A program made the position numbers and the translations under genes. Shown piece by piece: positions 5,839-23,568 of a stretch of 64,000 nucleotides of DNA. Position 1 is the stretch's first letter; every line of letters starts with the position of its first letter. The notes beneath the pieces are model-generated. The model did not search any database. It was not told the DNA's origin and saw only the letters and a list, made by a program, of their open reading frames with translations. Source of the DNA: a bacterium (GTDB lineage: Bacteria; Electryoneota; RPQS01). Location: positions 214,806-278,805 of the forward strand of contig JAHDVH010000003.1 in NCBI GenBank assembly GCA_023382385.1, written 5' to 3'.

Positions 5839-8802
5839 ATGCAGATGCTATACTTTACGATGAAACCAATGGGTCCTGGGATGAAAGCTTGTTTGGTCGG
5901 TTTTCGCGTCTTATTACTTACCCTCTTTGGGTTGCTTGTTTCCGTTCCGTCTACCGTCTGTAGTGCTGATGTGATTTGCCCGGATTGCGGCAAAGTCGTT
6001 GAGAACGATTCACCGTGGGAAGCGGTAACTGCATTAGAGAACAAAGACACTTGGAAGAGCGCTTTGGCGCCTAAAATGTACTGTTTCGATCCGGGTACAC
6101 CTGAGGACGTTGTTCAGTCACTGGTGAATCGAATCTACAACAACCCTGCCTCCTACATCAGCAGCAGTCGTTGGACGGCAACAGCATCGGGCACGACCGG
6201 AGCTCAAGGTGAGCCGACGGTCCTCACGTACAGCTTTGTGCCGGACGGAACTACCGTTCCTGATGATCCACCGCCGAATGGCTTTGGGAATCAGGTCAAT
6301 AACATCCATGCCATGATGATTGCGAAATTCGGCAGCGTTGCCAACGGTAAGGCGAAGTTCAGACAGGCTTTCAATCAATGGCAGGCGCTAACAGGTTTAA
6401 CCTATGTGGAAGAGACGAATGATGATGGCGCTGCTCTGTTTTCTTCACCCGGTGTGCTTGGCGTCAGGGGTGACATTCGACTCTCGGCAATCCCCATGGA
6501 TGGCTCGTCCGGAGTCCTTGCTTACAACTACTTTCCGAATACCGGAGACATGGTATTGGATAATGCCGAAAGCTGGCAGAATTCCAGCTCGGACTATCGG
6601 TTCTTTCGCAATGTAGTCACCCATGAAGCGGGACACGGTATCGGTCTGTCCCATGTCTGCCCGGATGATTGTCAGTTTCTGATGGAGCCATACATCTGCA
6701 CGGCATACGATGGCCCGCAGCATGACGATATTCGTGGAGGTCAGCGGCAATACGGAGATACGACCGAAACCAATGACTCGCCCGCAACTGCGACTTCATT
6801 AGGCAGTCCCGCTAATGGCACAACGACGGTCACAAATCTGTCAATAGACGACAATGGCGATCAAGACTATTTTGCCTTCACTGTGCCGACGAACAAACAA
6901 ATCACGGTAACCGTTACTCCTGTCGGAATGTTCTATGACCAGTGTGCGCAGACTCAGGCTTGCGCATGTGCGGCAGGGGACACAGTAAGGACCACAGACG
7001 ACGTGAATCTGTCCGTGCGGCTTATCGGCACAAACGGTTCCACGATTCTGGCGGAGGCAAGCAGTCAACCTGCCGGCGTGGCGGAGACCATTCCTAATAC
7101 AGCCCTTCCGACTGCGGGAACGTACTACATTCGGGTCTACCAGGGCACGACGAATGCGATCCAGTTGTACAATCTCAGCTTCACCTTGTCCAATCTTGTG
7201 GTGCCGTCAATAACTGTGTCACAGCCAAATGGTGGCGAGTTTTGGAATGCGGGCACTAATCAGACGATTACGTGGACGTCCACAAGTGTGACAGGTAATG
7301 TGAATATCGAACTGAATCGGAATTTCCCGGGCGGAACGTGGGATATGCTGTTTGCGAATACGGCGAATGACGGAACGCAATTGTGGAACGTCGTTGGTGC
7401 AGGCGGAACTGAAGCCAACTGCAAGGTTCGCGTGACGAGCATCAACACCCCGAGTGCGACAGACGAATCCAACAATGTGTTCACGATCTTCTCGCCTTCC
7501 ATTCAGGTTGTCCGGCCGAACGGCGGAGAAGTTCTAAACGGTTCTGCTCTTGAGCAGATAAATCTTATTCCGAGTGGAATCACAGGCAACGTCCTTGTGG
7601 AATTGAATCGTGGATATCCCGCCGGAACGTGGGAAAACATCGGTTCCATTCCGAACACAGGCGGCACTCTTGTGTTTGGCGGTCCGCCCACAACGACCGC
7701 TCGAATTCGATTGACGTCAATTAATCAGCCGAGCGTGTCGGATATTTCCGATGCGAATTTCGAAATCTACGTTGTGAATCTTCCGCCAGTCATTAAACAT
7801 GATCCGAAGGGGGATCAGTCACCTGGCAACTCGGTTGTCACTGCTGTAATCACGGATGATGCCGGTCCGATCACCGCAACGCTTTACTATCGTCCCTCAG
7901 GTGGCGGGGCATTTTCCTCCGTGAGCATGCCTTCAACCGGAAACCCGAATGAGTTCGCAGGACAATTTGTTGCGGTCGAAGGAAGCTACGACTACTACCT
8001 GCAGGCGCTGGATGCTTCAGACTTCGCCGCGACCGATACCTTTAGTTTCGATGTCAAGGCCTGCGAAGACGTGATTGCCTTCGATGACGGAACTACAGAA
8101 GGGTACAATTGGGCCTACGAAACGCCGTACTCGTGGGCTGTGAAATATGCGCCCGAAGCGTATCCGTTTTTACTGTGCGGATTTGAAGTGGCTGTTGCGA
8201 AGTTCCATCCAGACAGCAGCCATTCCCGAATCGGTGCCAGAGTTCTGCTTGCTGACGGAATCGGAGGCCTGCCCGGTACTGAGATTTGGAGTGAGATTAG
8301 TGGCTCGGTCGGCAATGTGATCGGAGGTCTTCCCGCCGGTCAAGTTGCGTGGGCGCGAGTCTTAACTCCTGAAACACCGTTGATTATGAACCAACCGTTC
8401 TTTGTGGCCGTCGATAATCCCCAAGGCGGCGCATACGAGGCCTTCGGTCGTGACGATAACACCAATAGTAGCAACAGCTATTTCTACGATGGCTGCGATT
8501 CGCTATGGTATAGCGAGAACGATCTGGTCCCCAACGCGCAAGGCGGACAGCGTATGATTCGATTGCTGGGGGCATCGGTTCCACCCCCAAGCGAATTGGT
8601 CATTCTCTCAAGCGGAAATGACATCGTTCTCTTTTGGGCGAGTTCCGGTGCACCTTATTATCGAGTCTACAGTTCGACAACCACCGGAGGGCCTTTCACG
8701 ACGCTTGAAGGTTCAACTTCCGATACGACCTTCACAGATCTTGGTGCCGTCATGTCGAATGATCTCAAGTTCTATGTGGTTGTAGCCTCTGCGACTCCCT
8801 GA
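5839..8802 (+). CDS. Secreted matrixin-like zinc metalloprotease, paralogue without sorting domain
   Basis: Up to 987 residues. After a signal sequence (hydrophobic core LVGFRVLLLTLFGLLVSVP) comes a metzincin domain closely similar to the divergent neighbour. Its zinc motif is HEAGHGIGLSH (262-272) and its Met-turn is FLMEPYI. A pre-peptidase C-terminal-like domain follows, then two PNGGE repeats of the Ser/Thr-rich Kre9/KNH type (SQPNGGEFWNAGTNQTITW and VRPNGGEVLNG), a beta-sandwich, and a terminal fibronectin-III-like stretch. No YPNPFN sorting domain is present, unlike its partner. The start is uncertain: ATG codons at 5839, 5860 and 5881 all keep the signal peptide and none has a clear ribosome site; the later ones give more typical signal peptides. 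Upstream 5614-5838 is shared with the divergent gene. Confidence 0.88.
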   Translation: MQMLYFTMKPMGPGMKACLVGFRVLLLTLFGLLVSVPSTVCSADVICPDCGKVVENDSPWEAVTALENKDTWKSALAPKMYCFDPGTPEDVVQSLVNRIYNNPASYISSSRWTATASGTTGAQGEPTVLTYSFVPDGTTVPDDPPPNGFGNQVNNIHAMMIAKFGSVANGKAKFRQAFNQWQALTGLTYVEETNDDGAALFSSPGVLGVRGDIRLSAIPMDGSSGVLAYNYFPNTGDMVLDNAESWQNSSSDYRFFRNVVTHEAGHGIGLSHVCPDDCQFLMEPYICTAYDGPQHDDIRGGQRQYGDTTETNDSPATATSLGSPANGTTTVTNLSIDDNGDQDYFAFTVPTNKQITVTVTPVGMFYDQCAQTQACACAAGDTVRTTDDVNLSVRLIGTNGSTILAEASSQPAGVAETIPNTALPTAGTYYIRVYQGTTNAIQLYNLSFTLSNLVVPSITVSQPNGGEFWNAGTNQTITWTSTSVTGNVNIELNRNFPGGTWDMLFANTANDGTQLWNVVGAGGTEANCKVRVTSINTPSATDESNNVFTIFSPSIQVVRPNGGEVLNGSALEQINLIPSGITGNVLVELNRGYPAGTWENIGSIPNTGGTLVFGGPPTTTARIRLTSINQPSVSDISDANFEIYVVNLPPVIKHDPKGDQSPGNSVVTAVITDDAGPITATLYYRPSGGGAFSSVSMPSTGNPNEFAGQFVAVEGSYDYYLQALDASDFAATDTFSFDVKACEDVIAFDDGTTEGYNWAYETPYSWAVKYAPEAYPFLLCGFEVAVAKFHPDSSHSRIGARVLLADGIGGLPGTEIWSEISGSVGNVIGGLPAGQVAWARVLTPETPLIMNQPFFVAVDNPQGGAYEAFGRDDNTNSSNSYFYDGCDSLWYSENDLVPNAQGGQRMIRLLGASVPPPSELVILSSGNDIVLFWASSGAPYYRVYSSTTTGGPFTTLEGSTSDTTFTDLGAVMSNDLKFYVVVASATP

Positions 8803-8823
8803 CAAGTTTCGTTTGGATTCATT

Positions 8824-8847
8824 GAGAGCCCGGGCAACCGGGCTCTC
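8824..8847 (+). terminator. Terminator after the plus-strand metalloprotease
   Basis: A 10-bp perfect stem (GAGAGCCCGG / CCGGGCTCTC) with loop GCAA, 21 bases past the stop. The following tract GTGTCTCT is T-rich but not a clean T-run. Confidence 0.7.
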
Positions 8848-9067
8848 GTGTCTCTAATTCCTGCATTTATAGCAGAATATTCCCTTTCCATGTGGACTGA
8901 TGCGCTTCAAACAATAAGAGAAACTCTTGCTAAGGTTTTGTTAATGCCAAGTTGCGTTTTCTTGCAGATGTCATCTCAATAGCTTACCTTTTCACTTGTA
9001 AGGGAACAGCGAGGTGTTTACGTTGAGTCGAAACCCAAAACGGTCAACACCGGGAGGTTGAACGATA

Positions 9068-10438
9068 ATGAACAATCCAAGAGTTTGCTGCGTCTTCTTC
9101 GCGCTGCTGCTTTTCCTCGCCTCGGCCGACGCGCAACCCATTCAAGTTGGGTTTGGATATTGCGCTGAAGCAGAGCCGATCGGTTGCGGCTGCAGTTTGC
9201 CGACACGAGTACCCATTGCAGATGGCGAGAACTCGTGGTGTATCTTCTGGGATCGCAATGGAAATGGTCCGGACGAGTTGGACGAATTGCTGGCAGAAGG
9301 AGTTGGCTATGGCCAGGCTAACTACAGTTGCAAGCCGTTTAATGGCGTGGAGTATTGCGGCTCTGAAGGCAGTTTCTTTGCCGATCAGTACTTGATCATC
9401 GGGATTCCACCCGTGCCGCCCGATTCTTCAAGTTACTTCATCAAAGTGACAGGCGAGAGTTGCTGCTGGGTGTCCGATACCTTTGTCGTTGAAGTGGGTT
9501 TTCAGGAAATCTATCTCGCCGATGATGACTGGACTTGTGAAGACATCGCGTGTCCATTTGGTGAAGCACCTAATCCAGTACAGAGCATTTCCGCCACGAT
9601 GGATGCATACTGTCTGCAAGTTGATTTCACTTGGGAACACGATGGTCAAAACGTGACCGGCTTCAATCTATACACGAGAACTGATCCGGGTCAGCCTTGG
9701 CTCTTTCTCCGTCCGTTCTCTGGGACGGAGCGTTCTGGCGGAATCCCCGCATGCGTGGACGGACCGATTCAGATTGGATTACGGGCAGTGAACGGTGCAC
9801 AGATGTCGGACATTGTCTTTACGACAGGGACGACGTACCTGCGTCATTTCCCGGATCAGGGCGCCGTTCAATGGGTCGGTGGAAACGACTACAGACTTAA
9901 CCTGGTGAGACCACCCGCAGGTGGCAGTTGTGCTGCGTTCTTGTGGTTCGACTTCTATTCCGGGGGGAGTTTCGTGGAGCGGGTTCTGTCGGTAACCAAC
10001 TTTGAGCGCGTATTAGAGATGACGTTCGACGTCACGCTTCCGACACCGCCCAACGCAGACTGCTACATTGTCATGCTTGACAGCTTCCCGGATCCTCTGA
10101 ATCCCATGTACGGTTGCGGTTTGACGGATACAGCATTCTTTACAGTGGATGCAGGCGATGCGCCTAGTCTTGTCCGCGAGTTCAACTTGCATCAGAACTA
10201 TCCCAACCCTTTCAATCCAGTCACTACTATCGCTTTCATTCTTCCATCAACCGGCTACGCGGAGCTTGCAGTATTCAATTTACAGGGTCAACGTGTCGCA
10301 ACGCTTCTGTCGGGGGTCGCGACCGCTGGTGAGCACAGAGTCGAGTGGTCGGCGAGCGATATCGCTTCTGGAGTGTACATATACCGTCTGCAAACGGATA
10401 CCCACTTGTCGACTCGCAAAATGGTGTTGATGAAGTGA
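9068..10438 (+). CDS. Secreted cysteine-rich protein with C-terminal sorting domain
   Basis: 456 residues. It has a signal peptide ending near ASADAQ, a Cys-rich N-terminal half (about a dozen cysteines, including YCAEAEPIGCGC, suggesting disulphides), a fibronectin-III-like middle (VDFTWEHDGQNVTGFNLYTR), and a sorting domain (LHQNYPNPFNPVTTIAF ... VYIYRLQTDTHLSTRKMVLMK). The N-terminal half matches no family I recognise. The tail is the type IX-like signal also seen at 3478 and 33794, so surface delivery is likely. The ATG is preceded by GGGAGG. It is a single gene with a terminator just downstream. Confidence 0.8.
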   Translation: MNNPRVCCVFFALLLFLASADAQPIQVGFGYCAEAEPIGCGCSLPTRVPIADGENSWCIFWDRNGNGPDELDELLAEGVGYGQANYSCKPFNGVEYCGSEGSFFADQYLIIGIPPVPPDSSSYFIKVTGESCCWVSDTFVVEVGFQEIYLADDDWTCEDIACPFGEAPNPVQSISATMDAYCLQVDFTWEHDGQNVTGFNLYTRTDPGQPWLFLRPFSGTERSGGIPACVDGPIQIGLRAVNGAQMSDIVFTTGTTYLRHFPDQGAVQWVGGNDYRLNLVRPPAGGSCAAFLWFDFYSGGSFVERVLSVTNFERVLEMTFDVTLPTPPNADCYIVMLDSFPDPLNPMYGCGLTDTAFFTVDAGDAPSLVREFNLHQNYPNPFNPVTTIAFILPSTGYAELAVFNLQGQRVATLLSGVATAGEHRVEWSASDIASGVYIYRLQTDTHLSTRKMVLMK

Positions 10439-10456
10439 CGGGAAGTCATTTCAACG

Positions 10457-10486
10457 AACAGCCCGGCGAATTCTCGTCGGGCTGTT
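10457..10486 (+). terminator. Terminator between convergent genes
   Basis: AACAGCCCG pairs with CGGGCTGTT. Pairing continues inward through a G-T pair and three more pairs to a four-base loop ATTC, giving about 13 bp. TGTTTTGG follows on the plus strand. It probably serves the plus-strand gene mainly and may also stop the minus-strand operon ending at 10508. Confidence 0.8.
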
Positions 10487-10507
10487 TGTTTTGGCTTTCA
10501 TCTTCAG

Positions 10508-11218
10508 CTAAGGCGATTTCACTCGCTTCAGAGTTCCTTGAACTCTAAACTCCGCATTGTACGGTGTGTAGTCCAAAACGATGTCGTAGGCCGGGCCTTC
10601 GTCAAAAGTAAGATACAACACTGTCGCTTCATCAGCAGCGGCATACTTTCCGCGTACGGGCGGCACGAAATTGCTTGTCCAGCGACACGTGCTGCTCACT
10701 CGGACATCGTCCAACCAGCCGTCAAAGCCGCGCGGCTTGTCATCATCCCCAATCCCGTTGCCTATCCAAACTGGCTTGCGCGTAACTGTGAGCGGCACAT
10801 CAATCACGGTCGCGGAGAACAGATTGCCATCCACGAAGAACCGCAAGGACTTTCCATCATATGTCACAGCAACGTGCTGCCACTTCCAATATGTGACTGC
10901 GCCCTTCTCAGAGAGCTGCCAGCCTGCGTCGCGACTCGGTCGAAAGCCAATGCGGGCATCGTCGGAAAGGTAGAATGTCAAACCACTCTTCTCCTGATCA
11001 AGGATTCGTCCTCGCCCTCCACCACCCTGAGTCCTCGGACGCACCCAAGCCTCAAAGGTGTACTCACGGGCGCCCTTGATCGACTGCAAACCATCGATGT
11101 GTTCAATCTTGCCTCCGGCGGTCTTGCCGTCCAGATCCAGACAGTAATTCCACGACCGTGGTTGCGAGAAGAGCAAGGCAGTCGACGAGATCAGGATGAA
11201 CAGAACCCGAAGAATCAC
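10508..11218 (-). CDS. Secreted LamG-like (concanavalin fold) domain protein
   Basis: 236 residues with a signal peptide (LRVLFILISSTALLFSQP) and one LamG-like jellyroll domain. Typical strands are YTFEAWVRP, KSGLTFYL, WQHVAVTYDGKSLRFFVDG and FDGWLDDVRV. Such domains bind carbohydrates or proteins; the ligand cannot be told. It starts with GTG, and GTGA overlaps the TGA of the DUF6305-like gene by four bases, which fixes the start and makes it the last gene of a seven-gene operon. Its link to the poly-gamma-glutamate-type genes upstream is positional only. Confidence 0.8.
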   Translation of the reverse strand: MILRVLFILISSTALLFSQPRSWNYCLDLDGKTAGGKIEHIDGLQSIKGAREYTFEAWVRPRTQGGGGRGRILDQEKSGLTFYLSDDARIGFRPSRDAGWQLSEKGAVTYWKWQHVAVTYDGKSLRFFVDGNLFSATVIDVPLTVTRKPVWIGNGIGDDDKPRGFDGWLDDVRVSSTCRWTSNFVPPVRGKYAAADEATVLYLTFDEGPAYDIVLDYTPYNAEFRVQGTLKRVKSP

Positions 11219-11766
11219 TCTTTCGCCTTCTCCTCAACTGAATACTTTGTTCTCAGCAACGGTCCCAAATCGGTAATCTTTTCAACCACCGAATAGTTGA
11301 TTTTTCGCTCGTCGGCTATCGACTTAAAGAACCCGTCATCGTCTCCCCCGGACACTACAATCAGCTCGTTGGCAAGGCCCGCGCCCAAGCGATTGAACTC
11401 GTCAGAGAGAGCGCCTCGGCGGTTCTTTCCGCCGACATGGACTGCCAATACCGGTATGCCTTGCTTCGCGGCGCTTGACAGAAGTTCTGTAACACGGGAT
11501 GATTCTTGCTCGGAACTTACCTTGGCAGCGCCGAGTCCCTTACTTGAACCTCCCAGCACGACAATGACCGACTTGTTTCCTTCAAGATGGGTGGTATTCG
11601 CCAGTGGCTCATATGTAAATGGAATATTCTCGCGAGTCAAGAGCGTCTTGAGCATCTGTGCGTCAGCGCTTTGTCCCGCAGAGGTCAACAACACAGGTGC
11701 CGCCAAGTCTGCGGCCAGCGCCCTGATTGTGAACAGCACAAGGGTGAGTATTGAACTTCGAAGCAT
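11215..11766 (-). CDS. DUF6305-like exported protein
   Basis: 183 residues from the ATG at 11766, which is preceded by GAGAGG and followed by a signal peptide (LRSSILTLVLFTIRALA). The body reads APVLLTSAGQSADAQMLKTLL, later VVLGGSSKGLGAAK, GIPVLAVHVGGKNRRGALSDEF and ELIVVSGGDDDGFF. These blocks match my recollection of the DUF6305 family. The motifs suggest an alpha/beta fold with a substrate-binding glycine loop. No enzymatic role is known to me. The frame extends further upstream into the deacylase gene, but that extension is unlikely. It sits between the deacylase-like gene (14-base gap) and the LamG gene (4-base overlap). Confidence 0.7.
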   Translation of the reverse strand: MLRSSILTLVLFTIRALAADLAAPVLLTSAGQSADAQMLKTLLTRENIPFTYEPLANTTHLEGNKSVIVVLGGSSKGLGAAKVSSEQESSRVTELLSSAAKQGIPVLAVHVGGKNRRGALSDEFNRLGAGLANELIVVSGGDDDGFFKSIADERKINYSVVEKITDLGPLLRTKYSVEEKAKE

Positions 11767-11780
11767 AATGTCCTCTCTTC

Positions 11781-12908
11781 CTATTCTTTTCCGGCTGAGG
11801 AGAAATAGTGTCCCAAGCCGTTTTCTTGAATGTCTGAACAATCCGGAATGCCGACTGCAATAACAGCGCGATCGGGATGCAGTTCGTTGAAACTCTTGTT
11901 CAACATTTTGAATCCGGCGATGTGTCGGCCGACGCGCACGCCTAACGAAATTCCGTCGGGCCCATAAGGAACTCGCGTCAGATTAATCTCCGCTGCTTGA
12001 ACGTACATCGGGTCTTTCCCCGTAAGTATCAAATTTGCGTCTGTCTTCCCGCGCAATCGACCTTGAATTGCATTGGCCGACTCCATGAGCGTCGCAAGGC
12101 ATGGTGTATGATCACCAAGCTCCCGGTGCGAAAGGCCGCGAAAGTTGGCCGGAGATGGTTCAAGCGAGAAGTCCAGCCCTTCAAGCTGCAATTCGAGAAC
12201 CGCGATCGAAGCGCAATCCATCGCCCTTTCGTGCGCCACGATCGCATTGACCACAGGATACTCAAGCGACGCCTCGTGCATGTCAATCACCAAATCCACC
12301 CGCTCGCTGCGCACCAATTCTGCAATGGCATGTCCGATTCGCTGTGTGAAATTTCCGTCCGATCGACCCGGATAGCTACGATTGAGATTTCGACTGTCCA
12401 TCCCCGAAAGCAGTTGTCCTGAGGGATAGTGCACAAATACTTCGGGATCAGGCCATTGATCAAGCGGATTTGTATAGCGGCTGCCCATTCTGAAACTGCG
12501 TGACCCTGTAGGAGTCTCGATTGCAAATGTCGCCGGAAACGCTTCGCCTGGTGTCGTGTGCGTGAGCGCGGAGTGGTTGGCACGCGGAACAACCAGAATT
12601 CGCCCTTGCTCCATCGTCAGATTTTCTATCAGTAGATATGCGGCGAGGTAGCTTGCCGGTTCGTCGCAATGTGTTCCCCCCAAAACAAGTAGCGTCCCGC
12701 CACTAAGAGTGTCCCCAAACTCCATGACTTCGGTGTCTCCGCGCGTTCCCAGAAGCGGCGGATAGTAATCGGACAGTTTCTTGATGGCAGTAAGCGAGCG
12801 CGTTGGGAACAACGTTTCATCAGAATGCGCCTGCCGAAACTCGAATCCCGTCACGACACAGAGCGCAGTCGTGAGAATCAGTAGAACAAAAGCACGGGCC
12901 AACTTCAT
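11781..12908 (-). CDS. Succinylglutamate desuccinylase/aspartoacylase-like zinc hydrolase (exported)
   Basis: 375 residues with an N-terminal signal or anchor (ARAFVLLILTTALCVVTG). The zinc-ligand pattern of the M14-related deacylase family is present: GGTHCDEPAS supplies His and Glu, and the later IDMHEAS supplies the second His and a nearby Glu. SRNLNRSYPG resembles the Asn-Arg substrate motif of aspartoacylases. It probably removes acyl or amino-acid groups from small amide substrates outside the cytoplasm. Its ATG overlaps the stop of the 49-residue gene (ATGA). The neighbourhood (gamma-glutamyltransferase, poly-gamma-glutamate system protein, permease) suggests a gamma-glutamyl or N-acyl amino acid substrate, which is inference. 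Confidence 0.8.
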   Translation of the reverse strand: MKLARAFVLLILTTALCVVTGFEFRQAHSDETLFPTRSLTAIKKLSDYYPPLLGTRGDTEVMEFGDTLSGGTLLVLGGTHCDEPASYLAAYLLIENLTMEQGRILVVPRANHSALTHTTPGEAFPATFAIETPTGSRSFRMGSRYTNPLDQWPDPEVFVHYPSGQLLSGMDSRNLNRSYPGRSDGNFTQRIGHAIAELVRSERVDLVIDMHEASLEYPVVNAIVAHERAMDCASIAVLELQLEGLDFSLEPSPANFRGLSHRELGDHTPCLATLMESANAIQGRLRGKTDANLILTGKDPMYVQAAEINLTRVPYGPDGISLGVRVGRHIAGFKMLNKSFNELHPDRAVIAVGIPDCSDIQENGLGHYFSSAGKE

Positions 12909-13054
12909 TTGAACAGGAACACGCGCATGATAATCGGAATCAGAACCACCGTTGCGGACAACTGACGCCGCCAGTCTGATTCTCGAAACAATTCACGGAG
13001 AGTCAAGATTCCGACACTCAGTGCAATCAGCCAGTATATCCAAAAGAGGATCAT
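12905..13054 (-). CDS. 49-residue two-segment membrane protein
   Basis: A tiny ORF fixed by its neighbours: its ATG shares one base with the stop of the permease gene (TGATG), and its stop overlaps the next start (ATGA). The sequence has two hydrophobic segments, about residues 2-19 (ILFWIYWLIALSVGILTL) and 32-48 (SATVVLIPIIMRVFLF), joined by a charged loop (RELFRESDWRR). The frame is open further upstream, but that part lies inside the permease gene. It may be a reduced partner of the DctM-like permease in place of the usual four-helix small TRAP subunit; this is inference. No family recognised. Confidence 0.6.
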   Translation of the reverse strand: MILFWIYWLIALSVGILTLRELFRESDWRRQLSATVVLIPIIMRVFLFK

Positions 13055-14331
13055 CACGCCAGCCCAAACAATTTTGCAAAGTCGTTTGCGAAGTAGATCA
13101 TCAGAAGCGTTACCGCGATTGAAAGAGCGATTGGCCAGACACAAAATTTCAGAATTCTGACAGTGCTGTTTTCGCCCACGACCGGTCCCGCAAGCAGAAT
13201 AGCCAGGCGCGTCGGAGGCATGTAGTCGCCAACCGATGCAAGCATGGAAAGTGCCGCAGCGACGAGAATATTGCTGCGATCAAGCAATGACAGCAGAATC
13301 GGCACACCCAAAACGACGCTTGCACCGTATGCGGAAACTCCTCCAAACAACGGAACGAGTACGGCCATGCCAAGGTAAAGCTGCCAGTCAGGCAAGGACA
13401 GCAGGTTTATCACGATCCACCCGCGCGCGCCGCTTAAGGTCAGAACTTCAATAAATGCACCGATTCCTGCCAGAAGCGCAAGAATCGACAGAGATTCGCG
13501 AGTAGCCCAGGTCGCACTATCCTTGATCGAGACTCGATCACCTGTGAAGAGCCCGACGACTGCGCTGAGAATGAATATCAAGGGTATCCCGACATAGGGA
13601 ACAACTCCCGGAACAAACTTCTCTCCCAGCATCAGACCTGCCAGAACCACAAGCGGCAGATAGAGCTTCAATCCGTATTCGCCGAAGCGAGATTGTGGAA
13701 GAAGTGTTAAGGCAGTCTGGGGATCAAAAGACTTGAAGTATCCGCCCATCAACAAAAATGCCGACAGCAGGGCAAGCGGGATAGTCGCAAGCAGCAGTGG
13801 CAGATCAAATCCAATGTACGGCATGTCCACGCCGCCACAAATCAGCATCGCGCAGATGTTCACGGGCGGTGCAACCATACCGAAGAAAGCGCCGGTCGCG
13901 ATGAAAGCTCCGGCCACTGCAGGCGGTGCGCCCGTGCTCAAAAGCAACGGCGCAATCATCGCACCCGTCGTCAGAACGCAGGGTGCGGTTAGACCTGTGA
14001 ACATACCGGGAAACATCACAAGCAACATCAGCAATGAGATCAGCAGAACCTTGTGGCGGCCGAAGTTCTGCACAACCCAGACGTTCAGTGTACCGAGAGC
14101 ACCCGAACGCTCAAAGACTGCCATGAAGAACAGCGATGAGATTACAATGAGCATTGGATCCAAATAGAGCATGGATCCTTCAACCAGATATCTTAGTCCC
14201 AATCCATTGCCCGAAGCCAAGCTTCCACTTGCCGCCGACAACAAAAGAGCAACACCCGTAGGTATCCTCAACAGAAAGATCGCGCCGCATAGAGCGGCAA
14301 TCATGACGCCAAGGACAGCTCCTTCGCTCAC
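13054..14331 (-). CDS. TRAP-type transporter large permease (DctM-like)
   Basis: 425 residues, almost wholly hydrophobic, about 11-12 membrane segments, the usual length of DctM subunits. Typical blocks include LRIPTGVALLLSAASG near the start, GMFTGLTAPCVLTTGAMIAPLL, ATGAFFGMVAPPVNICAML and the C-terminal LASVGDYMPPTRLAILLAG. It belongs to the DctM/ion-transporter superfamily that imports organic acids with sodium or protons. Neither a normal small subunit (DctQ) nor a binding protein (DctP) gene is adjacent. The GTG start overlaps the TGA of the upstream gene (GTGA). The substrate is unknown; context suggests a glutamate-containing or N-acyl compound. Confidence 0.8.
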   Translation of the reverse strand: MSEGAVLGVMIAALCGAIFLLRIPTGVALLLSAASGSLASGNGLGLRYLVEGSMLYLDPMLIVISSLFFMAVFERSGALGTLNVWVVQNFGRHKVLLISLLMLLVMFPGMFTGLTAPCVLTTGAMIAPLLLSTGAPPAVAGAFIATGAFFGMVAPPVNICAMLICGGVDMPYIGFDLPLLLATIPLALLSAFLLMGGYFKSFDPQTALTLLPQSRFGEYGLKLYLPLVVLAGLMLGEKFVPGVVPYVGIPLIFILSAVVGLFTGDRVSIKDSATWATRESLSILALLAGIGAFIEVLTLSGARGWIVINLLSLPDWQLYLGMAVLVPLFGGVSAYGASVVLGVPILLSLLDRSNILVAAALSMLASVGDYMPPTRLAILLAGPVVGENSTVRILKFCVWPIALSIAVTLLMIYFANDFAKLFGLA

Positions 14332-15308
14332 CTCTTCTCCAAGAAGTACACCGGCGAAGTACCAAGTCTGGGCAATGGAGACGGATCCACCGGAATTCCC
14401 GCATGCTGAGCAAGCTCTTCAACCTGCAGAAGATTCAAAACCGGCACTCCGGCAGCAAGGAAGTCAAACACCAATCCTCCAGTGGAGGTTGACACGGAAT
14501 TCTCCCAGTTCTTGCTATCAGGGCGAATGTAGCCCCCCGGAAGCTCCCGACCTTCAGGTCCTGTGCCGAGCATCAAATGGTTTCCGCCAACGTTGATCAG
14601 GAGTGAGTAGCTTTGCGGATTCCCGACGGCAGCCTGCCGCTCTTCGTATTGCGCGCGACGGTTGCCCGCATCGAGTAGTCTGTATCCGAGTCGCGCGCAC
14701 CTCTTTCTTAGAAAGTCAAGCGTTTCCGCGGTCAATCCGCCCCCAACATCGCCCGTCCCGCCCAGTGTCACAAGATCGCTGCGTTTGTTCAACAGGCCTT
14801 CTCTGACAAGCACGTCCTCCATATCAATCCAGGTCATATCGAGCTGATTGGCGCCATAACTTGACGCCCCGAGGCTTGCTATACGGAGCGACGGTACGCC
14901 AAGAGTCTCAAGTGCGCAAATCAAGTTCAGATTTAGTCCCGGCAGAGAACCGGTCATCGTGACCAGGACTGAATCTTTCTTTGAAAGACCGTGCTCTTGC
15001 AGCAAACGAGTCAAATAGGCTGCAAAGTCAGGATTCGTAGCCGTACGTTTGGCCGCAAGATAGCCCGGTGTCGTAGTCAAAGGTGTAAACTCTTCACCTA
15101 CCAGACCAGTCCGATTGATGTCATTCTTCGAGTTGACTATTCCCAATCGATGTTTGGTCAGGTAGATCTCTCGAGAGGCGCGCTGCGCTTTCTGAGCAGC
15201 TTCGAGCATTAACTCGTACGAAGGGTGGCGCGATTGTGACTCTGCGTGAGCAACGGCACAAAGCAGCAGACAAATGAGGACCTTCTGGCCGCTAATCAAG
15301 TGACGCAT
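14328..15308 (-). CDS. Poly-gamma-glutamate system protein (PgsW-like)
   Basis: 326 residues from the ATG at 15308, with GAGGG six bases upstream and a signal peptide ending near AVAHAES. Characteristic blocks are VLVTMTGSLPGLNLNLICALE, SLRIASLGASSYGANQ, TWIDMEDVLVREGLL, TLGGTGDVGGGL, LLINVGGNHLMLG and GVPVLNLLQVEELAQHAGIPVDP. They match my recollection of the family labelled poly-gamma-glutamate system protein (TIGR04332), found beside PgsB/PgsC in other bacteria. Its biochemical role is not established. No PgsB or PgsC homologue is present in the window, so a synthetic role here is doubtful. The GTG at 15314 is a weaker start alternative. Confidence 0.75.
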   Translation of the reverse strand: MRHLISGQKVLICLLLCAVAHAESQSRHPSYELMLEAAQKAQRASREIYLTKHRLGIVNSKNDINRTGLVGEEFTPLTTTPGYLAAKRTATNPDFAAYLTRLLQEHGLSKKDSVLVTMTGSLPGLNLNLICALETLGVPSLRIASLGASSYGANQLDMTWIDMEDVLVREGLLNKRSDLVTLGGTGDVGGGLTAETLDFLRKRCARLGYRLLDAGNRRAQYEERQAAVGNPQSYSLLINVGGNHLMLGTGPEGRELPGGYIRPDSKNWENSVSTSTGGLVFDFLAAGVPVLNLLQVEELAQHAGIPVDPSPLPRLGTSPVYFLEKR

Positions 15309-15316
15309 TCGCACCC

Positions 15317-17071
15317 TCAGTAGCCGTCTGCCGCACCGTCACGACGAGGGTCAGAACTCCCTACCATTCGTACCTGCGAGTTCTTGGGAAAGTGAATGGC
15401 CTGCACTCCTCCGAAGTAGTTGCTGATCGGTGCATCCGGGTATAGCTTCCACCCTTTCAGTGCAAGGGCATCCAGCGTGGATTGAGGTAATCGAGGCTCA
15501 TAGACTAACGTCATTCCGGCCGGAAAGAAGCGCGGCAGGTCGAGAGCTTCGTTCAGCGGTAGATCGAATTCGAGTACAGCGAGTATAACCTGCACAAGTG
15601 CCGCAGGAATCCGCGCTCCGCCCGGGGTGCCGATCACCATCACGGGTTCGCCATCTCTTAGGATGATGGTTGGCGCCATGCTGGATACCGGGCGATGGTG
15701 CGGCGAAATCGAATTTGCACCGGTCGTATCTCGATCGAAGTCCGCCATATGATTATTGAGCAACAATCCTAATTCGGGAACCATGACGCCAGAACCGAAG
15801 AAATAGTTGATGGACTGGGTAAGCGATAACAAGTTTCCGTCTTTGTCGGCCACCACAAGGTGAGTCGTATTGCCTGGGCCAAATGCGCGGACGGAATCCA
15901 ACGGAAGTAGTTTAGACACCACCGTATCCATCGGCAGTGAATCCCGGACCTCCGAAAGGTAGGTCGGAGACAACAGAGTGTCTACAGGAATGCGTGAAAA
16001 CCCCGGGTCACCAAGCCAAGCAGCTGCGTCGGTGCGTGCTTTCCGAATCGCTGTGGCCACCGTATGAATATAATCCGGTGTCAATAAACCCTTTCCTTGA
16101 ATGTCATACGGTTCAAGCAGCTTCAGTGTTTCCAGCAGAATTAATCCTCCTCCTGCTGGCGGGGATGTCGTTACTATCTCATAGTCGCGATATCTAACGC
16201 GAAGCGGTTTCCGTTCTACTGGTGCATATCGATTTAGATCGGACTCAGACACAAACCCACCATGGGACTTGACGGCACTTGATACTTGAGCGGATACAGG
16301 AGGAAAGTAGAAACTCTCAAGGCGTGTATGTGACAGGAACTTGAGCAATGCGCTTAACTTCGGTTGAGTCACGCGAAATCCTGCAGGCGGCGGCAAGCCC
16401 TCATCAAGAAAGACACGTGCAAGATTTGAGTCTGAGGAAAGCGTCTCGAGATTGTCAAGAATGATGGAGCTTTGTTTCTCCGAAACCAAGTAACCAGAAT
16501 CGGCGACTGCTACTGCGTCCGCAAACAGCTCAGCCAGAGTCTTCGTGCCGAACCGGCGATGCAAGGTTTGCCATCCAGCAGGTGCACCCGGAACAAGAAC
16601 GGACGTCCCACCTGTGCGTTGCGCCAATCGCAACGTGTCAAGCGGATTGAAATAGACCGACCTGCTCATTCTTGCCGGCGCAGTCTCTCGATAATCCAAG
16701 AGGAAAGTTGAGTCGGCTGCCGCGTCATAGTATAAAGCGAAACCGCCGCCACCTAACCCACTTGCATGAGGCTCGGTAACATTGAGCATTGCCAACGCAG
16801 CCAGCGCGGCATCTACGGCATTTCCACCGGACTCCAGCACACGCTTACCAGCGGCAGCAGCAAGCGGATGTGCACAGACCACCATTCCATTGTTAAACGC
16901 TGATAAATCTGCGCGGACGAAATTCGTATCCAGCGGCGCAGGCAAAGGCTCGACAACTGCCGGGGGCTTTGTCGAGGCGCAACCTAAGACGAGCAGGACG
17001 CAAGTGGCACCAAGCAGCTGGAAAATTATTCTTTTCCAAGCATTTGTGGGGATAAAATGGAGACATGACAT
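15317..17071 (-). CDS. ggt: Gamma-glutamyltransferase, lipoprotein type
   Basis: 584 residues from the ATG at 17071; a TTG 24 bases upstream is also open. The signal peptide ends in a lipobox (LLVLGC, Cys about residue 31), so the enzyme is probably lipid-anchored in the periplasm or outer membrane. The Ntn-hydrolase precursor shows MVVCAHPLAAAAG, GGNAVDAALAALAMLNVTEPHASGLGGGG (as two joined blocks) and the self-cleavage site GNTTHLVVADKDGNLLSLTQ, where the first Thr (about 402) becomes the N-terminal nucleophile. GGSAR-like GTPGGARIPAALVQ is also present. It cleaves or transfers gamma-glutamyl bonds, as in glutathione or poly-gamma-glutamate. First gene of the seven-gene operon. Confidence 0.93.
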   Translation of the reverse strand: MSCLHFIPTNAWKRIIFQLLGATCVLLVLGCASTKPPAVVEPLPAPLDTNFVRADLSAFNNGMVVCAHPLAAAAGKRVLESGGNAVDAALAALAMLNVTEPHASGLGGGGFALYYDAAADSTFLLDYRETAPARMSRSVYFNPLDTLRLAQRTGGTSVLVPGAPAGWQTLHRRFGTKTLAELFADAVAVADSGYLVSEKQSSIILDNLETLSSDSNLARVFLDEGLPPPAGFRVTQPKLSALLKFLSHTRLESFYFPPVSAQVSSAVKSHGGFVSESDLNRYAPVERKPLRVRYRDYEIVTTSPPAGGGLILLETLKLLEPYDIQGKGLLTPDYIHTVATAIRKARTDAAAWLGDPGFSRIPVDTLLSPTYLSEVRDSLPMDTVVSKLLPLDSVRAFGPGNTTHLVVADKDGNLLSLTQSINYFFGSGVMVPELGLLLNNHMADFDRDTTGANSISPHHRPVSSMAPTIILRDGEPVMVIGTPGGARIPAALVQVILAVLEFDLPLNEALDLPRFFPAGMTLVYEPRLPQSTLDALALKGWKLYPDAPISNYFGGVQAIHFPKNSQVRMVGSSDPRRDGAADGY

Positions 17072-17290: not shown

Positions 17291-17782
17291 TTGAATTATA
17301 ATCCGGATGAAATTTTCCCCTTCTGGGTCAACAGGACGGCTTTCATTTTTCGGGCACTTTTTGAACAAAGAGCCGAGCCGTTCGGCCTGAAGTGGCTCGA
17401 GGGAGTAATTCTCCTCAAGCTCGGCATGGGTCATGATACCCTTGCCGATCTGGCCCGAAATCTCGACCAGTCCCACCCTGCTATCCTCCGTCATCTCGAC
17501 AAACTCGAGGAATTGGGCTTAGTTGAACGAACCAACCATCCTGAGGACAGACGAGTCAAGATTCTCGTGTTGACCAAAGCAGGGAAGTCCCGTGTTGCGG
17601 AGCTACAGGACATGACCAGCAGACTCTCGAATGAGTTCCGCGCGAGATTTGGCAGCGATCGGATCGCTCAGGCCATCACACTAATGAAAGAGGTGGTAGC
17701 GGCATACGCTGAAGACGGTCTTCAGAGTTGCCCAATTGACGAAGAACATCATGACTCAGATAAGCAGGCAGGACATGCGTAA
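17291..17782 (+). CDS. MarR-family transcriptional regulator
   Basis: 163 residues with a winged helix-turn-helix: TLADLARNLDQSHPAILRHL is the recognition part, then LEELGLVERTNHPEDRRVKILVLTKAG forms the wing, a near-consensus MarR signature with the Asp-Arg-Arg of the wing. It presumably represses the efflux operon that follows and dissociates on binding a small aromatic or toxic ligand. The start is TTG, supported by GAGGG six bases upstream and by the promoter spacing. Its 3' end overlaps the start of the TolC-like gene by eight bases. Confidence 0.9.
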   Translation: MNYNPDEIFPFWVNRTAFIFRALFEQRAEPFGLKWLEGVILLKLGMGHDTLADLARNLDQSHPAILRHLDKLEELGLVERTNHPEDRRVKILVLTKAGKSRVAELQDMTSRLSNEFRARFGSDRIAQAITLMKEVVAAYAEDGLQSCPIDEEHHDSDKQAGHA

Positions 17783-19202
17783 CTTCTACTTACTCTCGCT
17801 TGGCATGGCGCTTCTGGCTGGAGGGTGCGGATATGTTCAAAGGCATAATGCACCACAAATCGCTGACTTACCTTCAAACTATCACACCAGCTCGGAACTG
17901 AGCGAGTTTCGCGATGAAGCATGGTGGGTCGAGTTTGGAGATGAGACTCTAAATCAGCTCATGAATGAAGCAATTTCAAATAGTCCGAGTCTCGAGGCAG
18001 CCTTGGCGCGACTGCAACAGTTCCGTGCCCAGAGCAGAGCGACGCGGGCGAGCCTCTTCCCAACTCTGACCGCTTCCGGATCCTATCAAGACGGCGAGCG
18101 CGCATTCGGAGGTTTTGGGAAAATCGAGCTGGGATACTACGACGTTAACATAACAGCTCAATATGAGATTGACTTATGGGGAAAGCTGTCGGCTCGGCGG
18201 AGGGCCGCATTTGGCGATTTATTGGCTTCGGAAAACGACGCGCGTGCGGCCTTGCTGACATTGACGTCACAGATTGCGCGGACGTATTTTCAAATTCTTG
18301 ATCTTCGCGAGCAGCAGCGACTGATTGACCAGACCATCGCTGCAAATCAGAGCGCTTTTGATCTTGTGAAGAGTCGCTATGCATTGGGCATCGTCACGTC
18401 CCTCGATGTCTATCAATCGGAGTCCAGCCTGGCACAATCACGCGCACAGAGATCAACTATAGAGGCTTCGCTGGCCGCGATGGAGCATTTGCTGTCCGTC
18501 TTGCTCGGGCGCTACCCTGAAGCCGGAATTGCAGGTAATATGATTTCTCTCCCGCCGGCGGTCGTAGACATCGGGACGGGATTGCCTTCTGACTTGCTTG
18601 AGCGCAGACCCGATATACGATCTGCACGGGCACGGCTGCTCGCTTCGGATGCGCGTTGGGCATCTGCAAATGCCGCCCTCCTCCCGAGTTTTACGCTTAC
18701 CGGATCTTATGGGAACATTAACAAGAACCTGGAAGACGCGCTTGACCCCGAGAACTTGCTTTGGAATCTTGTTGCGGGCTTAACGGCACCGATTTTTCAG
18801 GGCGGTCGATTGGTAGGAGAAGCGCAGCGATCTGAAGCTGTTTTCTATGAAACTGCTGCAAACTACAAAGCGGTCGTGCTGAATGCTTTTAGGGAGGTTG
18901 AAGACGCGCTGGTCCGGGGTGAAAAACAGAAGGAACGCATTCTCGAGCTGGAAAGGCAAACTGCCGCTGCCGGTAACTCACTCCGAGTCGCGGAAGATCA
19001 GTATCGGCAAGGCGTCATTAACTACCTGCAAGTGCTGATTGCACAAAACTCTTACTATCAAGCTCAAAGTGCCCTAATCAGCGCGCGGCGAGAACTTATT
19101 CAGAATCGAATTGACTTAGCGTCCGCGCTCGGCGGCTCGTGGACGGACGAAATACTGGGGAACCGTGAGCCGTCGCCGAAACTGCATACGGAGGTTCGTT
19201 GA
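17775..19202 (+). CDS. Outer-membrane efflux lipoprotein (TolC/NodT family)
   Basis: 475 residues from the ATG at 17775, which gives a compact lipoprotein signal (MRNFYLLSLGMALLAGGC, Cys18). ATGs 24 and 39 bases upstream are less likely. Two outer-membrane-efflux repeats follow: the first with WWVEFGDETLNQLMNEAISNSP, the second with LLERRPDIRSARARLLASDA and ending in the coiled-coil region (YRQGVINYLQVLIAQNSYY). It forms the trimeric exit duct of the tripartite pump with the next two genes. The stop is followed within three bases by the MFP start. Confidence 0.92.
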   Translation: MRNFYLLSLGMALLAGGCGYVQRHNAPQIADLPSNYHTSSELSEFRDEAWWVEFGDETLNQLMNEAISNSPSLEAALARLQQFRAQSRATRASLFPTLTASGSYQDGERAFGGFGKIELGYYDVNITAQYEIDLWGKLSARRRAAFGDLLASENDARAALLTLTSQIARTYFQILDLREQQRLIDQTIAANQSAFDLVKSRYALGIVTSLDVYQSESSLAQSRAQRSTIEASLAAMEHLLSVLLGRYPEAGIAGNMISLPPAVVDIGTGLPSDLLERRPDIRSARARLLASDARWASANAALLPSFTLTGSYGNINKNLEDALDPENLLWNLVAGLTAPIFQGGRLVGEAQRSEAVFYETAANYKAVVLNAFREVEDALVRGEKQKERILELERQTAAAGNSLRVAEDQYRQGVINYLQVLIAQNSYYQAQSALISARRELIQNRIDLASALGGSWTDEILGNREPSPKLHTEVR

Positions 19203-19204
19203 AC

Positions 19205-20367
19205 ATGACTGCCGAGAAAAAGAAGTTCAAAATACTTTTGCCTGTCTTAATCATCGTGGGTGGCTTCCTCCTCATGATGGGACTGATTGCGAGCCGCAAG
19301 AAGCCGGAGTCGAGCATTCCGAGCTTTGCCGGCGTGCTGGTTGAAGTGCAATCAGTATCGAAAGAATCCCACCGCGCAACGGTCAGCGGTAGTGGAACCG
19401 TGCGAGCTAAGCAAGAAGTCTCTCTATCTCCTCAAGTAGGAGGGAAGGTGGAATGGGTAAGTGAGCAGTGCGCCGCCGGCGGCGAGTTTCGCAAGGGCGA
19501 TATCCTATTCCGGATTGAGTCGATTGACTACGAGCTTGCGGTTGAGCAAGCTCGGGCACGAGTCGCGCAATCGGAATATCAGCTTGCAGTCGAACAGGCA
19601 CAGGCGGACGTCGCCAAGCGGGAGTGGAATCGAATGGAGGAAAGCAAAGCCGCTGTCGCCGACACACCAACTTCACTCGTCCTGCGCGAACCCCAACTAA
19701 AGCAAGCGGAGTCCAATCTTGCGTCTGCAAAGGCCGCTCTCGAGCAAGCCGAACTCGCGCTCGAGAGGACAAGAGTTCGTGCTCCTTTTTCAGGACGAAT
19801 ACGTCGTGAATCCGTTGATGTGGGCCAGATGGTCTCGCCGGGTATGCCGGTGGGCAGTCTGTACTCGACTGATGTCGTGGAAATTGAGGTCGGATTGCCT
19901 GTTGAAGAACAGAGGTGGCTTGAGATTCCGGGTTCACCTGCGACAGTGACATTGAAAGTTGATAGAAACGACTTCACCTGGAGTGGCAAAGTTGTGCGTT
20001 GGGTCGGTGCGCTGGACAGCGTGGGGCGACTTGCACGTGTGATAGTGGACGTTGCAGCACCTTATGCAGAAAGAGAAGACGGCGGGCCGGTCCTTGCGGT
20101 CGGCAGTTTTGTGAACGTGGATATCCTTGGAAGAGAGATGCCCGATGTTGTACAACTTCCGCGTTCAGCCGTTCACAGCAACGACATCGTCTGGATCGCA
20201 AGGCCGGATAACACTCTCGAGTTGAGGCCCACCACGTGCATTCTAAGAACCCGCAACTTTGTCTATCTCAGCCAAGGGCTTGATGCGGGCGAACGTGTTA
20301 TACTGACCAGTATTTCCGGCGCAGCGGACGGTATGAAGCTACGCATTGCAAACGGAGGCTCGAACGG

Positions 20368-20371
<4 letters not shown>
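19205..20371 (+). CDS. RND efflux periplasmic adaptor (MFP/HlyD-like)
   Basis: 388 residues. One N-terminal membrane anchor (FKILLPVLIIVGGFLLMMGL) is followed by the split biotinyl-lipoyl domain (VSGSGTVRAKQEVSLSPQVG and later RVRAPFSGRIRRESVDVGQM), a helical hairpin between them (LKQAESNLASAKAALEQAEL), and a beta-barrel/membrane-proximal domain. It links the inner-membrane pump to the TolC-like duct. GGAGG lies 10 bases upstream of the ATG; a TTG at 19199 is an alternative. It ends in ATGA, overlapping the RND gene. Confidence 0.92.

Positions 20372-23568
<3,197 letters not shown>

Follow-up and report, generated by a model that had tools for sequence, protein, structure and literature searches.

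We analysed a window of 64,000 nucleotides (contig JAHDVH010000003.1, positions 214,806 to 278,805 of assembly GCA_023382385.1, a bacterium of the phylum Electryoneota) and describe in it a seven-gene operon on the minus strand (10508-17071), whose core belongs to a conserved PgsC-bound module that combines exported hydrolases with a carrier. The seven open reading frames (ORFs) are tightly packed, with gaps or overlaps of +8, -4, -1, -4, +14 and -4 bases, and they are one tight unit. An earlier annotation made from the letters alone (the sequence-only reading) had proposed seven genes on one strand with these gaps and these gene identities, and the ORFs and family searches agree with it. The features are as follows, the higher coordinate of each gene being its start.

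15317..17071, minus strand: exported gamma-glutamyltransferase (GGT), possibly a lipoprotein, with catalytic Thr402 present and lid loop absent (family match)
14328..15308, minus strand: TIGR04332 family protein, exported form (family match)
13054..14331, minus strand: DctM-like permease with about 12 hydrophobic segments (family match)
12905..13054, minus strand: 49-residue protein with two hydrophobic segments (no family match; homologues in other groups)
11781..12908, minus strand: exported AstE/AspA-type zinc amidohydrolase, deacylase-like (family match)
11215..11766, minus strand: exported DUF6305 protein with a predicted Rossmann/flavodoxin-like fold (family match)
10508..11218, minus strand: exported LamG protein, accessory (family match)
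10453..10490, strand not assigned: hairpin between the operon end and a converging gene (z -4.5)

The first gene encodes a member of the GGT family (438.8 bits against PF01019, 414.9 bits in the family searches), in which Thr402 aligns to residue 1 of the small chain, i.e. the N-terminal nucleophile threonine. Its earlier description as a lipoprotein is weak: VLGC is seen by eye, while the simple lipobox pattern is not matched. The enzyme lacks the lid loop, since it aligns without a gap to 4y23, which we take to be the B. licheniformis-type GGT, and has ten residues fewer than 2e0w, presumably the E. coli GGT. The corresponding stretch is 28 residues long in all ten distinct GGTs of the bacterium's own family and in 5/5 from other groups, and 27-29 residues long in the nine Spirochaetota GGTs compared, so that the loop is missing in these too. 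A second GGT of the same genome (C1:735753) has a stretch of 38 residues and thus a lid loop. These comparisons covered ORFs of more than 450 residues, which left out pieces in loci L085 and L139. The loop is present in most known GGTs, according to a passage of PMC6202685. The B. subtilis enzyme, which has none, is described in parts of PMC9073855 as a poly-gamma-glutamate hydrolase, and the loop as affecting the selection of donors by size. Judged by loop absence, the operon GGT is of this lidless type and in this respect resembles the poly-gamma-glutamate-hydrolysing GGT of Bacillus.

The fifth gene encodes a zinc enzyme matching AstE_AspA_cat (PF24827) with 39.6 bits for a cut-off of 25. 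Enzymes of the AstE/AspA type bind zinc through an H-x-x-E motif and a distal histidine, and carry a catalytic glutamate. The operon protein has this site: the ligands H80, E83 and H211 are kept in 38/38 sequences, the operon copy included, and E276 in 37 of them (ORFs below 330 residues or 300 bits were left out of the count). An RNxNR motif is also present. The profile of the enzyme matches DoeB/AspA-type deacylases and, weakly (E 0.001), secreted proteins of the H. pylori-type M99 kind; that the Pfam M99 label applies to these entries is our assumption. In a Spirochaetales metagenome-assembled genome the zinc enzyme is doubled inside one protein of 678 residues, with two Pfam stretches (L013:6231-8267). 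The use of a zinc hydrolase to cut this polymer has a parallel, because PghP cuts poly-gamma-glutamate and is likewise a zinc enzyme, with a relationship to carboxypeptidase A, as an extract of PMC4497714 states; the parallel drawn here is one of role.

The permease meets DctM (PF06808) at 35.8 bits (cut-off 23.8) and has one distant solved relative, a TRAP transporter DctMQ (E 0.03). The 49-residue protein that follows it matches no family, and in other genomes its homologues are encoded immediately behind the permease. No DctQ match was found among the operon proteins, to which the search for this family was restricted. Likewise, DctP was found in none of the ten permease-bearing family genomes, the present one included, by a search with PF03480 only, outside which TAXI-type binding proteins fall; the same search gave matches in 6 of 14 control genomes. 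Among the remaining proteins, the TIGR04332 model scores 284.2 bits (cut-off 100) on the operon copy and has no match in the 14 control genomes, one of which is that of B. subtilis. DUF6305 (PF19823) reaches 157.7 bits. The LamG protein matches Laminin_G_3 with 76 bits; its gene is present in three of the ten own-family permease loci, and the other loci that were scanned have no copy.

None of the seven proteins matches PgsB or PgsC in family searches, and the operon is thus not a synthase locus. The sequence-only reading had suggested looking for both elsewhere in the genome (G000; 2.9 Mb in 7 contigs, 98% complete), and they are there: on contig C1, which is not that of the operon, PgsC scores above its cut-off (279536-279925, 122 bits) and is adjoined by PgsB (403 bits) and a second TIGR04332 paralogue (246 bits). 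By crude hydropathy this paralogue has a C-terminal membrane helix that the operon copy lacks. Two exported proteins without a Pfam match over cut-off, X1 and X2, follow pgsB-pgsC-TIGR04332 (L004:7746-9754, i.e. C1:276345-278353); X2 may, by eye, be an outer-membrane barrel. The five-gene order is kept in 20 further pgs loci fetched from the phylum, two of which are cut by contig ends, L102 inside X1 and L103 inside X2.

How widely is the operon conserved? Its own family (f1) counts 11 genomes, of which ten have the permease. The order GGT-TIGR04332-permease is found in nine of these ten loci, and the tenth (L073) begins inside TIGR04332 at a contig end. The 49-residue protein and the zinc enzyme follow in 8/10 and DUF6305 in 7/10; L070 stops inside the zinc enzyme gene. 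In the eleventh genome (G032), GGT-TIGR04332 runs up to the contig end and no permease is matched. All nine genomes of family f3 have a GGT with an adjoining permease of 41-45% identity. The two loci of family f6 consist of permease-49-residue protein-zinc enzyme in one case and of the permease alone in the other. The patterns of f3 and f6 therefore indicate that the GGT-permease pair is less tied to a fixed context than the full set is. As for other observations in f3, a gene like that of the 49-residue protein lies on the opposite strand in five loci, in three of which (L089, L090 and L092) it is divergent and in front of the GGT-permease pair. The same three, out of four loci read gene by gene, have genes that look by eye like Wza/Wzc after the pair.

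Families f2, f4, f5, f7 and f8 (16 genomes), as well as G032, have TIGR04332 and no permease match; G032 was excluded from the permease-negative count because its TIGR04332 reaches a contig end. All 8 pgs loci fetched from these five families contain pgsC. Within the phylum, PgsC is found in 17 of 19 permease-bearing genomes tested (G005 and G006 lie outside the test). Loci on the same contigs were counted once: L010, L011, L012 and L014 were dropped because they stand on the contigs of L070, L075, L073 and L067, respectively; L008 shares its contig with L069, and L009 with L068. L200 and L201 are part of no count.

Outside the phylum, the core of the module (permease, 49-residue protein, zinc enzyme, often DUF6305, GGT and TIGR04332) is kept in Spirochaetota as well as six other families. 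When the permease profile (A2) was run against 392 Spirochaetota genomes, 15 matched at E 1e-40 or better. The 16 loci of these genomes have, without exception, the permease followed by the 49-residue protein and the zinc enzyme; DUF6305 is present in 15, the GGT in 10, and pgsC with TIGR04332 in 10. PgsC occurs in 25 of the 392 genomes, i.e. in 15/15 with the permease and in 10/377 without it (Fisher test, 7e-21, kinship ignored). Four of the 25 matches are under the cut-off, including those of the permease-bearing G284 and G381, and the one in G394, which has no permease, is weak and contains a stop. In ten of the 15 genomes PgsC lies on the same contig as the module, at 2.5-6.1 kb. Some Spirochaetota clusters hold further hydrolase genes: one or two of Peptidase_C69 between the zinc enzyme and pgsB (L143:4372-6012, L144:3744-7008 and L146:3653-6849; four proteins tested), and two more of AstE type in L141. 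Aside from this, L137 has tandem cassettes of permease-49-residue protein-zinc enzyme, with one diverged permease (543 vs 296 bits), and the frames around the permease matches of L121, L123 and L132 (G381, G418 and G352) hold one TGA each.

A broader sample of 386 genomes, which included 39 from the own phylum, gave 10 permease-positive genomes among the 347 others. Ten of their 11 loci show permease-49-residue protein-zinc enzyme and the eleventh ends inside the permease. PgsC is matched in all ten of these genomes from outside both phyla, three times under the cut-off (the lowest score, 51.5 bits, comes from a complete genome). The sequence-only reading had named confinement of the gene order to close relatives as a point that would count against it; this is not the case, since GGT-TIGR04332-permease-49-residue protein-zinc enzyme recurs in three genomes of f58, a family outside the phylum. 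In f14, two of three genomes have pgsB-pgsC-TIGR04332-DUF6305-permease. Taken together, 34 of the 37 permease loci that lie outside f3 and f6 have the permease-49-residue protein-zinc enzyme series, which, like the GGT-TIGR04332-permease order of f1, goes beyond chance, and PgsC is found in 42 of the 44 permease-bearing genomes tested. The association can be very close: in L013 a single strand carries GGT-DUF6305-permease-49-residue protein-zinc enzyme-PgsB-PgsC-TIGR04332 (PgsB at 193.6 bits, below the model cut-off of 222.7), and same-strand runs of module and pgsBC are also found in L139, L142 and L148, and in L185 with pgsBC first. Hence, the earlier description of the locus as lacking a polymer ligase holds locally, pgsC being absent from the fetched stretches of all ten f1 permease loci, but not in general, given pgsB-pgsC elsewhere in the genome and pgsC within the fetched stretch of 12/27 permease loci outside the phylum.

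TIGR04332 has separate paralogues in the operon and in the synthase locus. In a tree of 56 rows (for which the C-terminal 345 residues of the L182 ORF and 370 of the L147 ORF were used), the 11 own-family copies form one clade (100/99) and the 21 ligase-linked copies of the phylum another (100/100). The branch dividing the side of f1, f58 and f3 from the ligase-linked side has a support of 93/94, and two short copies from f6 fall on the ligase side.

The operon is limited upstream by a divergent MarR gene (17291) and downstream by a converging gene for a secreted protein (9068-10438). The hairpin at 10453-10490 has a T-rich tail only on the plus strand, which suits a terminator of the converging gene; the operon strand has no T run after it. 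The MarR gene opens a row, divergent from the operon, of regulator, TolC-like outer-membrane efflux protein, HlyD-type adaptor and AcrB-type pump (17291-23568). On the other side, 5839-10438 adjoins the operon and encodes a large metalloprotease of the matrixin type (PF00413) together with a Por secretion tail protein (PF18962).

What might such a module do? We give about an even chance to a role in which exported enzymes hydrolyse poly-gamma-glutamate and a DctP-independent permease takes the products up again, the polymer being that of the PgsB/PgsC encoded elsewhere in the genome. PgsB/PgsC would make the gamma-linked polyglutamate, which would then be exported. The lidless GGT would work from the amino end and, like its Bacillus counterpart, split off one glutamate at a time, and the zinc enzyme, a near-constant partner of the permease, might cut at the opposite end or deacylate the end products. 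Glutamate or short gamma-oligoglutamate would be imported without DctP by the permease, with the 49-residue protein as small subunit. In the weakest step, TIGR04332 and DUF6305 may bind the ends of the polymer or the product, or pass these on. We infer this recycling from the enzyme types, the lidless GGT and the accessory pattern, with the direction of transport and the reactions being predictions. The module is accessory and not needed for synthesis or export of the polymer, because PgsC occurs without the permease in 10 Spirochaetota genomes and in the eight pgs loci of f2, f4, f5, f7 and f8. Several hydrolases together with a carrier, as in the Spirochaetota clusters, suit breakdown and uptake better than assembly. 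Of the two alternatives of the sequence-only reading, the one supported is that the operon remodels a polymer made elsewhere. Yet, several points count against recycling. The nearest relatives of the zinc enzyme are N-acyl amino acid deacylases, with no known polymer hydrolase among them. The likeness of the permease to DctM is weak, the DctP search was confined to one family, and absence of DctP is not universal, because three other module-bearing genomes tested carry it. Other sequence follows the permease in L068 and L069. No zinc enzyme or DUF6305 was found in the fetched stretches of f3, and of the eight f3 GGTs compared only three have the stretch of 28 residues, five having a longer loop (35-37). 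Finally, G030 and G036 (80% and 88% complete) have the module and no PgsC was found in them.

One might instead speculate that the operon matures or anchors a capsule: a CapD-like GGT transpeptidase would join the polymer to an acceptor in the envelope, the zinc enzyme would trim its ends, and the permease and the 49-residue protein would aid export or transit through the envelope. CapD is indeed a GGT-family enzyme encoded in the cap operon of B. anthracis (in the relevant part of PMC4497714), the operon GGT matches CapD chains (3g9k), and the 47-residue CapE, called necessary in B. anthracis in the title of a reference cited by PMC5542703, invites comparison with the 49-residue protein. We nevertheless find anchoring rather unlikely. 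Other genomes have PgsC without the permease, so the latter is no requirement for export, and Spirochaetota have several hydrolases instead of one transferase, with no GGT seen in 6 of their 16 stretches.

Gamma-glutamyl peptides, glutathione and N-acyl-glutamate are general substrates of GGT and AstE-type enzymes, and the permease resembles TRAP large subunits, both of which would fit scavenging of such compounds from the environment, unrelated to a polymer of the cell's own. This was the other alternative of the sequence-only reading, import of gamma-glutamyl or N-acyl-glutamate compounds, and it has become less likely because of the near-strict co-occurrence with PgsC; the frequent clustering with PgsC and the TIGR04332 gene in the operon also speak against it, and we hold its chances to be poor. 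Still more improbable is that the permease exports glutamate or short oligomers which exported enzymes lengthen or exchange, so that the polymer would grow outside the cytoplasm. B. subtilis GGT is able to attach several gamma-glutamyl units one after another, and its loop-bearing mutant inherits this ability, but the same portion of PMC9073855 depicts the lidless GGT as a hydrolase, and a zinc hydrolase is almost always the partner of the permease.

Most work on poly-gamma-glutamate concerns Bacillus, in which the polymer is either released or anchored. If recycling is correct, the polymer could be retrieved across phyla by a carrier-linked set of hydrolases travelling with PgsBC. This would give first roles to DUF6305, to TIGR04332 and to a very small membrane protein that is conserved, and a carrier type lacking DctP would be identified. 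A bolder proposal, which we put forward only tentatively and think somewhat more likely wrong than right, is that poly-gamma-glutamate serves as a reversible outside store in several phyla: PgsB/PgsC would build it, hydrolases and a new class of DctP-free carrier (DctM-like plus two-helix 49-residue protein) would retrieve it, and TIGR04332 would have diverged into 'build' and 'break' paralogues. Our literature search returned no description of the gene set as a unit. Like TRAP transporters (DctPQM), the operon has a permease resembling the DctM large subunit; unlike them, it has no DctP found in its ten family genomes, and the partner of the permease is a 49-residue two-segment protein in an operon without DctQ. 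The zinc enzyme shares its zinc motif, RNxNR motif and profile matches with AstE/AspA deacylases and M99-type carboxypeptidases (the M99 matches being weak), but it is linked to a permease and N-terminally exported, and it resembles solved relatives over short stretches only. The TIGR04332 protein belongs to the same family as the 'poly-gamma-glutamate system protein' found with pgsBC, of which the genome has a ligase-linked copy, whereas the operon copy is in a separate clade tied to the GGT and mostly to the permease, with no ligase adjoining. A permease, an AstE-type zinc enzyme and DUF6305 are not known from the pgs/cap loci of Bacillus. In B. subtilis, moreover, ggt is unlinked to pgs, as noted in a passage of PMC4497714. 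What the Bacillus loci with GGT, PgdS or CapD have in common with the systems described here is the pairing of a PgsB/PgsC synthase with an exported GGT-family enzyme that acts, or in our case would act, on the polymer.

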